From a virus: DNA of 39,959 nt. Of this stretch, positions 8,183 through 28,630 are shown in pieces; position 1 is the first letter of the stretch, and each line of letters begins with the position of its first letter. A model generated the notes under the pieces. The model was not told the DNA's origin. It worked only from the letters and a program-made list of their open reading frames with translations, and did not search any database. Location of the stretch: positions 1-39,959 of the IMG/VR virus record IMGVR_UViG_3300044726_000244, one strand, 5' to 3'. Made by a program: the position numbers and the translations under genes.

Positions 8183-8751
8183 GGGAGGCCTCCTCCAGCT
8201 GGCGCCGCGCGGCCCGTGCTTCGGCCTCCAGCGCCATGCGAAGATTGTGCAGCGCCGTCAGCTGCGCCGCCGCGTCCGTCCCCGTCAACACGTAAGCAAC
8301 CCCATAGCTCAAGCTAGGGGCTTTGCACTCCCGATACTGCTGGGGCGCATAAATGAGGCCAGCTTACAAGGTGGCCCTAGTGGCAAACACCCCGGAGGAT
8401 GTCGCCGCGTGTCGAGATACCGTTGACCTGAGCAACAAGGATGGTGGTATAAGACCGCATACCTAACCGTTTCTCCCCGTAGGCGAGTGCCTTTGGTATG
8501 TTGAAAGAAGTATACATGGTATTTTGTAACCTATGCTCTCGAAATGTGCCGTTGGCACACAAGGAATTGCCCCGTTGGGGCAACCTCCTCTTCCTCCCCA
8601 TGGATAAATCCAGGGGCTTCCCGGAGGTTTGGTGATAATGCGCGGCCAGCATGCCCACGAGACGCCCCCAGGGGGTGCGTGGGTCCGCGTCCACCAGGGT
8701 CGCGGGAACCCACCAGACGGGCGCCGTCGGCCGTGCGGCTGGTTCAGCCAC
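8175..8751 (-). pseudogene. Early gene split by element A (5' part 8632-8751, 3' part 8175-8291)
   Basis: The 5' part starts at GTG 8751 behind GGGAGGAGGGAGG and encodes AEPAARPTAPVWWVPATL through LAAHYH. It then runs into element A and would stop at 8377 (124 aa, with a foreign tail). The 3' part encodes VLTGTDAAAQLTALHNLRMA through EEASHA, has no ribosome site of its own, and ends overlapping the next gene's start, as is usual in this operon. Deleting 8292-8631 (340 bases) joins both parts in frame as about 78 aa. I infer an insertion that broke the gene. Function unknown. Confidence 0.6.
8292..8631 (+). mobile_element. Element A: HEARO/omega-RNA-like structured element without ORF
   Basis: A 340-base non-coding structured segment read on the + strand. 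Its 5' end is GTAAGCAACCCC with a hairpin at 8300-8320. Its 3' end has three hairpins (8546-8558, 8567-8583, 8596-8616), then CCCGGAGGTTTG, and it is followed at once by GTGA. A long-range stem pairs 8458-8463 with 8495-8500. Element B has the same ends and the same stems with compensatory changes, plus an identical AGCATAGGTTACAAA segment read on the opposite strand. HEARO RNAs (the omega-RNAs of IsrB elements) insert before ATGA or GTGA, as I recall. No IsrB, TnpB or TnpA gene is present. Confidence 0.6.
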
Positions 8752-9037
8752 GCCTCCCTCCTCCCTTACTCCTTCGCCCTAGACGCCCGCCGGCGCGAAG
8801 GCCGTGGGGCCGCAGCCTGGACAGGACCGGCGCGGGACAAGGGGGACGGCAGGCATGGCTGTCCTCCGCACGTGGCTGGTCCGCAGACGCGAGTCCCAGG
8901 TCCTGGGCAGCACCCAGCAGGGTGTACTGGGGCCGTAACGTCATCCAGGAGCAGTACGCCTCGACGATCAAGCCGCGGCAGGCGCGCTCGATGGCGCTCA
9001 CTCCCTTCCTCCCTTCCCGCTCCCCTGCCTCCCTCAT
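8744..9037 (-). CDS. Hypothetical early protein, 97 aa
   Basis: The ATG at 9037 overlaps the stop of the gene upstream (ATGA) with GGGAGGACACCT before it. An alternative GTG at 9001 also has GGAGGAAGGGA. Residues 13-50 (VSAIERACRGLIVEAYCSWM and following) look like genuine helical coding sequence. The C-terminal third is Arg/Gly/Pro-rich and may be less constrained. No motif recognised. Confidence 0.5.
   Translation of the reverse strand: MREAGEREGRKGVSAIERACRGLIVEAYCSWMTLRPQYTLLGAAQDLGLASADQPRAEDSHACRPPCPAPVLSRLRPHGLRAGGRLGRRSKGGGRRG
8779..8856 (-). CDS. Possible 25-aa CxxC peptide
   Basis: A short frame with a very good ribosome site (CGGAGGACAGCC before ATG) encoding MPAVPLVPRRSCPGCGPTAF and five more residues. 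It is nested in another frame inside the 3' end of 8744-9037. The CPGCG motif fits the zinc-ribbon theme of the cluster, but the size and nesting make it uncertain. Confidence 0.3.
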   Translation of the reverse strand: MPAVPLVPRRSCPGCGPTAFAPAGV

Positions 9038-9504
9038 AGGTGTCCTCCCGCGAGCGCCGCCACCCCACAGCGGGTGCCATACCGGCAGTCGGCCAGGGCG
9101 AGGGCCTGGCAGCGCCGGCAGAGATGGCCACAGGGCAAGCCGTCGCTGTGGCAGCCGGGGAGATACCCCAGCCAGGTCAACTGGTTGTCCCACAGACGCC
9201 CATGGCCTATGAGGGGCTGGCTGAAATACGGCATCGCATCGATGCGGTAGACGCCTGGCAGGGCGATGCACGCTTCGTAGGCGTCAAAGACCACCAGCAA
9301 GACATGCTGGTAGTCGTCGTCGTCATCGTCCTCGCACCAGCAGCAGGTAAACTCGTAAAACTCGCGGTAGCACTCGTCGCACAGCGCGGCCTCGTGCTCC
9401 CCGCCCAACGGGGCATCGCGCTCGGCCTGGTCGAGCTCCTCGCCACACGACGTACACATGATGATGATCTGGGTGCCCTCAGCCTCTGGTGTGGTCTCGC
9501 TCAT
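9034..9504 (-). CDS. Phage Cys-rich zinc protein, 156 aa
   Basis: Residues 16-56 hold MCTSCGEELD, LCDECY and CCWCE, a likely two-zinc arrangement, followed by a run of six Asp. The second half (PGVYRIDAMPYFSQPLIG, later CGHLCRRC) resembles a phage family of unknown function that I recall with a PGIYRI-type motif. The ATG at 9504 lies exactly where element B ends, and the element supplies CGGAGG as the ribosome site. Without B the frame upstream of the ATG is continuous with the truncated gene at 9795-10184, so this may be the second half of a longer protein. Confidence 0.72.
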   Translation of the reverse strand: MSETTPEAEGTQIIIMCTSCGEELDQAERDAPLGGEHEAALCDECYREFYEFTCCWCEDDDDDDYQHVLLVVFDAYEACIALPGVYRIDAMPYFSQPLIGHGRLWDNQLTWLGYLPGCHSDGLPCGHLCRRCQALALADCRYGTRCGVAALAGGHL

Positions 9505-9890
9505 CAAAAATCCTCCGAGAAACCACTCCGTTCAGGGAGTGGAGGACAGGAGGTTGGCTCGTAGAGCCAATTCCTCGTGTGCCAAAGGCACATTGGTGTA
9601 GCATAGGTTACAAATAAACTACTATACTTTATCCAGAGCTGAAGGCACCCGCATGCGGGCTAACACGGTTGGGCTCTGGTGTTGTTTGACAACTGAGCTA
9701 GGGAGTTCCCGGCTGAATACGTTGCCGGGGTAAAAGTCTCAGCGTCAGTACTTCTGTACTGTACACGCACTCGTGAGAGTGCTTACGGCTGCGGTCAACC
9801 AGCCGATGGTCGCGCATGGATGTCAGTCCTCCGGGACTGGCTGCCTGTAAGGCAGCGACAAGCTCTGCCCTTCAGGGCGGAGTCGTTGAC
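9505..9890 (-). mobile_element. Element B: HEARO/omega-RNA-like structured element without ORF
   Basis: A 386-base non-coding element read on the - strand. The 5' end is GTCAACGACTCCGCCC with a CTGAA hairpin (about 9871-9882). Several further perfect hairpins include those near 9828-9840, 9850, 9770-9782 and 9748-9762. The 3' end has stems at 9575-9587, 9554-9570 and 9523-9542, then CTCGGAGGATTTTTG, and abuts ATGA. A long-range stem pairs 9634-9639 with 9673-9678. Its layout matches element A end to end, with compensatory changes in at least three stems. It cuts the gene at 9795-10184. No transposase or nuclease gene accompanies it. Confidence 0.62.
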
Positions 9891-10184
9891 GGCGCAAGGA
9901 TGGTAGTCTGTCTCGGGGTTTACCAGTTGACGGCCATAGTCGATGACGGTCCTGTCGCGTTCTTCACGGCAGGCGCGCCACCAAATCTCCCAGATGTGCT
10001 CCGGGTCTATGGTTCGCCGGACGTGAGACCCCAAGGGGAACTGGAATCCCAGCGTGTCTTTCCGCACGGCCTGGGCGGCGGCCTCCCAGCTCCGCTGCTC
10101 ATAGGCGGGGAGCAGCGACCACGGCAGGGGGGCGCCCTGATGGTACGCCGCGTAGGCGATCTCGCCGGGGGTGGGGCTAGCCAT
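9795..10184 (-). CDS. Early protein truncated by element B
   Basis: The ATG at 10184 has GGAGGACGACACGC upstream. Ninety-eight native residues (MASPTPGEIAYAAYHQ through ETDYHPCA) are followed by 31 residues read from element B (VNDSALKG onward). Native signatures include GEIAYAAYHQGAPLPWSLLP and WE-AAQAV, a compact helical domain also reminiscent of other phage early proteins; function unknown. Deleting 9505-9890 continues the frame into the zinc protein at 9034-9504, giving a 254-residue frame. It is therefore either a split fusion gene or a gene that lost its end. Confidence 0.65.
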   Translation of the reverse strand: MASPTPGEIAYAAYHQGAPLPWSLLPAYEQRSWEAAAQAVRKDTLGFQFPLGSHVRRTIDPEHIWEIWWRACREERDRTVIDYGRQLVNPETDYHPCAVNDSALKGRACRCLTGSQSRRTDIHARPSAG

Positions 10185-27743: not shown

Positions 27744-28250
27744 GTGGCTGAGCCCTTCATCACCTACAAGCTGACGGTCCCGAACATTCCACTCCTGCAC
27801 GCCGAGCAGAGCCGCCAAGTCATCTATCGTGAGGCGGCTCTGGCGGTGCGCGCCATCGTTGAAGACGTCGCCAGCGAAGCGAGGAGCCGCACCCCCGTCG
27901 GCGCCAGCGGCCTGCTGCGGGCCTCGATTTACACCGACGTGACCACGGGCACCTCGCTCAGCGCCGCCATCCGGGGCACGGTCTTTACGGGGGCCCAGGC
28001 ACCCTACGCTTCTGCTGTGGAAGAGGGGACGGCGCCGCACTGGGCCCCTATCGGCCCGCTACTCCTGTGGGCGCGGCGGGTGCTGGGCAACGAACGGGCG
28101 GCCTACGCCGTGCAGCGGGCGATCGCCCGGCGCGGCACACGCGGGCGGCATATGTTTCGCGATGCCATCTCCGCGGTCAGACCACGCATGGAGGGCATGC
28201 TGCGCCAGGCGATGGACCGGGCGGCCAGGTTGCTCCAGGGGGGAAGTTAG
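27744..28250 (+). CDS. Neck/tail-completion protein (HK97 gp10-like)
   Basis: The product is 168 aa from GTG 27744. The pattern is typical of HK97-gp10-like proteins: an N-terminal strand-helix unit, SRTPVGASGLLRASIYTDV, ASAVEEGTAPHWAPIGPLLL, then a C-terminal helix (MEGMLRQAMDRAARLL). These join the tail to the neck. Only a weak GAGAGG lies upstream. The last 4 bases overlap the convergent membrane gene at 28247. Confidence 0.8.
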   Translation: MAEPFITYKLTVPNIPLLHAEQSRQVIYREAALAVRAIVEDVASEARSRTPVGASGLLRASIYTDVTTGTSLSAAIRGTVFTGAQAPYASAVEEGTAPHWAPIGPLLLWARRVLGNERAAYAVQRAIARRGTRGRHMFRDAISAVRPRMEGMLRQAMDRAARLLQGGS

Positions 28251-28471
28251 GGTTGGCGCCGGACCTCAGCCAGGATCGCCTGAAGACGCGCTTCGGCCTG
28301 GCCCGCATAGGTTTCCATCTCCTGACGGATGCGCGCGGTGGTCAGCCAGCCCCAGACGAACATGGCCGCAACGAGGGCCAGGGTCGCCAACGTGCTCCAC
28401 AGGGCAATGAGGTACGTCGTGTGAAAGTCCTGCTGCATGGCTTCGAGGAACGTGCGGAGTTCGGGGGACAT
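28247..28471 (-). CDS. Reverse-strand membrane protein, 74 aa
   Basis: A strong AGGAGGTGTCGC precedes the ATG at 28471. The N-terminus is a short amphipathic helix (SPELRTFLEAMQQDFHTTYL), then one membrane segment at about 22-44 (ALWSTLATLALVAAMFVWGW) and a coiled-coil-like tail (RIRQEMETYAGQAEARLQAI). It is the second reverse-strand membrane gene in the late operon, with its own intergenic region upstream. Possible roles are holin, spanin-like protein or exclusion protein. Confidence 0.7.
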   Translation of the reverse strand: MSPELRTFLEAMQQDFHTTYLIALWSTLATLALVAAMFVWGWLTTARIRQEMETYAGQAEARLQAILAEVRRQP

Positions 28472-28630
28472 GCGACACCTCCTGTACGGTGTGGGTGAAC
28501 CGGGTTTCAGAGTACAGGCCCCGAACTTAGAGGGTTGATCAGACCCTACCCGGTCGGCGCCAGTGTACCACCTGGTACTCCAGAATTGTACCTCGTATAT
28601 TGTGCCCTATGCTAGGAGATTGGAGCACCC
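28472..28630. promoter_or_regulatory. Divergent intergenic region with promoter and palindrome
   Basis: This 159-base gap separates 28247-28471 (-) from 28631 (+). It contains a perfect palindrome GTACCACCTGGTAC (28565-28578). A + strand promoter candidate has TTGTAC (28586-28591), 16 bases, then TATGCT (28608-28613). It is one of few non-coding gaps in the late module and probably drives the tail genes, the reverse membrane gene, or both. Confidence 0.4.

Follow-up and report, generated by a model that had tools for sequence, protein, structure and literature searches.

Two ORF-less elements, e1 (340 bp, 8292-8631, minus strand) and e2 (386 bp, 9505-9890, plus strand), were located in the window, by which we mean the whole 39,959-nt stretch of the linear IMG/VR virus record IMGVR_UViG_3300044726_000244, whose terminase, portal and tail proteins indicate a tailed phage. 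Both very probably belong to the IS200/IS605 type, and they are probably non-autonomous TnpB-type elements in which a promoter and a guide-like RNA of their own are all that is left, mobilized and used in trans. That this RNA guides a TnpB supplied in trans is, in our judgment, slightly favored. The evidence for the elements themselves comprises the boundaries, an empty site in a relative, a left end common with a tnpB element, covarying RNA, a strand bias and a promoter motif. The first-pass annotation had described mobile ORF-less elements with a conserved guide-like RNA of the HEARO/IsrB kind, possibly moved in trans; the elements and their RNA, as part of the IS200/IS605 world, are upheld and mobilization in trans is probable, but HEARO/IsrB membership and the proposed strand are not supported.

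Architecture of the Two Elements

Sequence inspection agrees with the earlier delimitation of both segments, with their common ends and with their shared core, and the two-sided stem changes between e1 and e2 were found again at the same coordinates. Read in the sense orientation, each element consists of a left end with the hairpins E, D, C and B, a promoter and a structured RNA body. The left end of e1 (8537-8631, minus), which is common to the tnpB element of contig L058, bears hairpin E at 8584-8588/8623-8627, D at 8596-8616 and C at 8567-8583, besides B, while that of e2 occupies 9505-9600 (plus). The family promoter motif follows as GCATAGGTTACAAAATACCATGTATACT in e1 (8509-8536, minus) and as GCATAGGTTACAAATAAACTACTATACT in e2 (9601-9628, plus). 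The RNA body of e1 (subtype delta, 8292-8508, minus) contains stem A at 8459-8464/8495-8500, a closing stem S1 at 8292-8297/8362-8367 and a right-end hairpin at about 8300-8320, and that of e2 (subtype alpha, 9629-9890, plus) contains stem A at 9634-9639/9673-9678, a P/Q core at 9693-9741, S1 at 9794-9799/9885-9890 and a right-end hairpin at 9863-9882. The middles of the two elements differ because e2 carries the P/Q core and e1 another module that is also present in L191 and L198; modules are swapped between copies. The TAM at the left end is TCAC for e1 (8632-8635, minus; GTGA on the plus strand) and TCAT for e2 (9501-9504, plus), and the putative guide flanks, assigned from their position, are GTGTTGACGGGGACGGACGC (8272-8291, minus) and GGCGCAAGGATGGTAGTCTG (9891-9910, plus). 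The NTGA neighbor noted earlier does adjoin both segments; reverse-complemented, it gives YCAY, a 5′ TAM of the TnpB type. Searches of this record, a linear fragment, with PF14239, PF07282 and PF01797 gave no match and revealed no tnpA, tnpB or iscB/isrB, in line with the earlier observation that nuclease and transposase genes are absent from it; PF14239 was silent in all ten family records searched, but its absence is weak evidence, as its control genomes were silent too.

Insertion Sites and Family Members

Element e1 lies within a minus-strand phage gene. Joining the flanks of e1 and of e2 gives an uninterrupted minus-strand frame over both junctions, and therefore both look like insertions. 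A search for relatives of the e2 host gene, which could have given an e2 empty site, found none. An empty site was found for copy L006b, the flanks of which align uninterrupted to L057 (93% over 396 nt) and also to an empty site in L206 at 67%. The junction follows directly after CCAT with no target duplication, and the right boundary lies one base beyond its first delimitation (GATCAC). YCAY (TCAT, TCAC, CCAC or CCAT in sense orientation) stands at the left junction in 18 of the 20 ORF-less copies, the other two being L057 and L203, and the left flank of the tnpB copy ends in TTAC; the right flanks are different in every delimited copy. A right-end hairpin is present in the copies and the left-end helices covary, indicating subterminal hairpins at both ends. 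The precise empty site, with a short fixed motif at the insertion and no target-site duplication, together with the terminal hairpins, fits IS200/IS605, and the ends are common to elements with tnpA and/or tnpB.

The best such case is L058, in which the covariance model R1, built on the conserved end of 128 nt, matches with 104.6 bits directly upstream of an intact 375-aa tnpB, whose ATG lies 6 nt past the -10 box. The left end of this element is 76-81% identical to those of two ORF-less copies, and the identity stops at the tnpB start codon. Pfam and NCBIfam both identify the protein as TnpB, and in our own reading its motifs GFDFG, LETLNL and DREVNAA suggest an intact RuvC site. It is the one copy found with a high-scoring left end next to tnpB, and a search of IMG/VR for close relatives of the protein returned only the L058 TnpB itself. 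A contig with both tnpA and tnpB, L049, has a weaker copy of the family left end (40.7 bits). In the TnpB of L049 (6744-7796, minus), the RuvC-II region reads LIAVGNVSS and the usual glutamate is apparently absent. A tblastn comparison detected no tnpB coding remnant in these RNAs of the ORF-less copies (best E 0.02), so their body did not arise from the L058 gene by simple deletion.

Core-motif scans of IMG/VR extended the family to at least 15 other contigs, several of which hold more than one copy, and led to the delimitation of 20 complete ORF-less copies of 340-477 bp in addition to the tnpB copy. Four scan candidates (L050, L051, L052, and L054) were rejected as chance, as were core-pattern matches within coding sequence of 15 bacterial genomes. 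A DNA-level search of phage and plasmid records gave no relatives, and model searches of samples from Nitrospirota, Pseudomonadota and the phylum to which a Syntrophaceae genome belongs yielded nothing real. The family is so far represented in viral contigs only, and its copies sit in unrelated phage genes in either orientation.

Promoter Motif and Strand of the RNA

The first-pass annotation had also pointed out a AGCATAGGTTACAAA core in both segments. The shared core is present and invariant, and the best interpretation is a sigma70-like promoter lying opposite to the strand first proposed for the RNA, where the core reads (T)TGCATAGGTTACAAAANACTAGGTACACT, that is a -35 box, 18 bp and a -10 box TAYRMT. 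A hairpin formed from this core (helix 1) was considered and rejected, since it exhibits no two-sided change and the -35/-10 boxes explain its conservation. The identical motif also occurs without an element before phage genes, in intergenic positions of other contigs. In the window it appears once in this form, at 28585-28612 (minus, 0 mismatches, with none expected by chance), upstream of a small ORF of 74 aa (28250-28471, minus). The stretch from 28612 to 28472 (minus) comprises the motif, a hairpin-rich leader of ~110 nt and a Shine-Dalgarno sequence ahead of this ORF, and L184, L190, L195, and L209 have comparable leaders downstream of the motif.

As the promoter core lies on the opposite strand, the RNA should be read opposite to the strand proposed earlier, from the minus strand in e1 and from the plus strand in e2, a reversal that we consider highly likely. 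The tnpB gene and the G-U bias are on this side as well. Within the RNA body, G-U exceeds A-C on the sense strand by 30:7, in pairs that were predicted without allowing G-U, and by 17:4 (binomial p 0.0002 and 0.007, values that are optimistic because the cells derive from related sequences and are not independent). The left-end hairpins are strand-neutral (G-U to A-C 27:24). Matches of the R2 model fall on the sense strand of the element in the loci searched. A folding-energy test of strand was dropped, as the raw difference vanishes after correction for composition.

RNA Structure and Known RNA Families

In every copy a structured body, beginning with stem A, lies downstream of the promoter; it measures 217-262 nt in e1 and e2. 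The conserved RNA structure postulated in the first-pass annotation from the two segments holds in the homologues, in which covariation is present and two-sided changes are far above those in shuffles. At the left end, two-sided change affects 20 of 30 pairs, with 145 such cells where shuffles give 45. The P/Q core has 95 two-sided cells against 31, with 94.5% of its cells paired against 54% in shuffles and a collapse of the slid versions, and the closing stem S1 has 21 against 5.8, although counts for these two lean toward structure, the P/Q sequences having been trimmed by hand and the S1 arms picked by eye and typed by hand. Through S1 the RNA interior pairs with the six terminal bases of the element, directly before the putative guide flank, and its arms pair as GTAAGC/GCTTAC, GTCAAC/GTTGAC, GTCAGT/ACTGAC and GTTGAA/TTCAAC.

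An Rfam search of e1 and e2 gave nothing at threshold. With the HEARO model (RF02033), the search suggested earlier, there was no match even at E ≤ 5, whereas the positive controls upstream of six IscB genes in viral contigs scored 90-157 bits. The 5′ end of the elements on the first-pass strand, GTCAAC..CTGAAGGG..GCTTG..GTTGAC, does resemble the HEARO consensus, and the RTGR flanks would fit the IsrB TAMs NTGA/NTG/NTGG (PMC9581776).

The guide would then lie upstream of GTMA and the TAM NTGA downstream, and the right ends of IscB elements weakly match R1. Those weak matches stem mainly from the terminal hairpin, however, and although the end with GTCAAC..CTGAAG..GCTTG bears a real likeness to HEARO, terminal hairpins of this sort also occur in the family's TnpB elements. 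HEARO-like matches in L049 reach 12 bits and are sub-threshold, the autonomous relative carries tnpB and not iscB or isrB, and promoter, tnpB and G-U bias all favor the other strand. An omega-RNA of the HEARO/IsrB type, which shares with our elements an ORF-less guide-like RNA, a terminal stem and a TAM-like flank, is accordingly already disfavored and very improbable. Standalone omega-RNAs are known (PMC9581776).

Among Rfam families, HgcC (RF00062) comes closest to the 3′ ends of two copies, the L058 tnpB element and the ORF-less L204, with matches of 24.5 and 21.7 bits, far below the 50-bit cut-off, that lie on the same strand and extend into the flank. We take HgcC to be a TnpB RNA. The likeness covers the 3′ terminal hairpin and the GGAG..GUCA end before the flank, and the rest of the RNA is unrelated. 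A group I intron or IStron was rejected, as neither e1 nor e2 has such an Rfam match and the sense strand of e2 opposes the gene downstream. A literature search found no paper on the RNA of this family or on its use in phages.

Proposed Mechanism and Alternative Explanations

The predicted transcription start corresponds roughly to the tnpB start of the autonomous copy, and RNA would be made from stem A onward, through the right-end hairpin and into the flanking phage DNA. Such read-through would add a variable 3′ segment, as in the TnpB reRNA (omega-RNA), with the adjoining flank as guide and YCAY as TAM. TnpA and TnpB acting in trans, from another element, the host or a co-infecting phage, could move the element, and TnpB bound to the RNA could cut the element-free site beside the YCAY TAM, so that the insertion would be kept or copied; cutting of element-free sites has been proposed as the role of TnpB (PMC8612924). 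Like the TnpB elements of the ISDra2 type, e1 and e2 have terminal hairpins, a left-end TAM and no target duplication, the structured RNA would terminate at the right end and take the flank as its 3′ segment, and the family left end is common to a tnpB element. Unlike them, they are without tnpA and tnpB and their promoter would drive the RNA directly; the RNA has no overlap with a tnpB 3′ end, bears large extra modules and is longer than the ISDra2 reRNA of ~150 nt (PMC8612924).

Ends-only IS605 elements that lack ORFs have been described (PMC7290912), and e1 and e2 resemble these in being short, ORF-less and presumably mobilized in trans. A described PATE retains 58 nt of tnpB and the right end (PMC7290912), whereas our elements have a dedicated promoter and RNA in place of any tnpB remnant. 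Elements e1 and e2 might be inert MITEs or PATEs, with ends conserved for TnpA and RNA structure as a by-product of DNA hairpins, and the strand-neutral left-end hairpins agree with this. The internal RNA helices, however, covary strongly and with strand bias, and the promoter is conserved ahead of the RNA start; we regard inertness as improbable. Somewhat less unlikely is a phage regulatory RNA gene captured or flanked by IS200/IS605 ends and acting for the phage (in regulation, packaging or defense) without TnpB. The promoter motif common to phage genes, the swapping of modules, the confinement of the family so far to viral contigs and the copies in L185 and L194, which keep promoter and RNA core and have lost the left end, speak for it. 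Against it, the RNA terminates precisely at the right end of the transposon, with which it also pairs, copies occupy unrelated phage genes in either orientation, and the copies without a left end may be fossils.

If the reduced TnpB-type element is the true reading, a TnpB-world element has been stripped of both genes, keeping its promoter and a dedicated guide-like RNA, and has come to occupy phage genomes in several copies each. Its scaffold has no Rfam match at threshold and swappable modules, and its promoter motif is common to the phages' own promoters. One could then test whether a guide RNA can by itself behave selfishly, by exploiting nucleases in trans, and whether phages turn such RNAs against rivals. 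More speculatively, and with less than even likelihood by a wide step, this could be a guide-RNA-only, phage-adapted transposon with a phage-type promoter and a large, modular, undescribed scaffold, co-opting a TnpB in trans or an undescribed effector to cut the genomes of competing phages that lack the insertion.

Variant Copies and Element Ends

Promoter and RNA without left-end hairpins were observed in L194, L185, and L198, which may be fossils or domesticated RNAs. In L160, two nested or tandem copies occupy 8358-9330 (minus), and a gene-less HgcC-like right end (40.8 bits) lies near them. The phage contig L210, which has a family member, also bears two close group I introns (758-987 and 1033-1266, minus). 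Finally, the TAM-side end has a Shine-Dalgarno-like sequence just before a flank RTG in 17 of the 20 ORF-less copies (8620-8635 and 9501-9515 in the window), by which insertions at gene starts may be made harmless; in several (e2, L006b, L162, L186, L188, and L204) this RTG starts an ORF of >40 aa.
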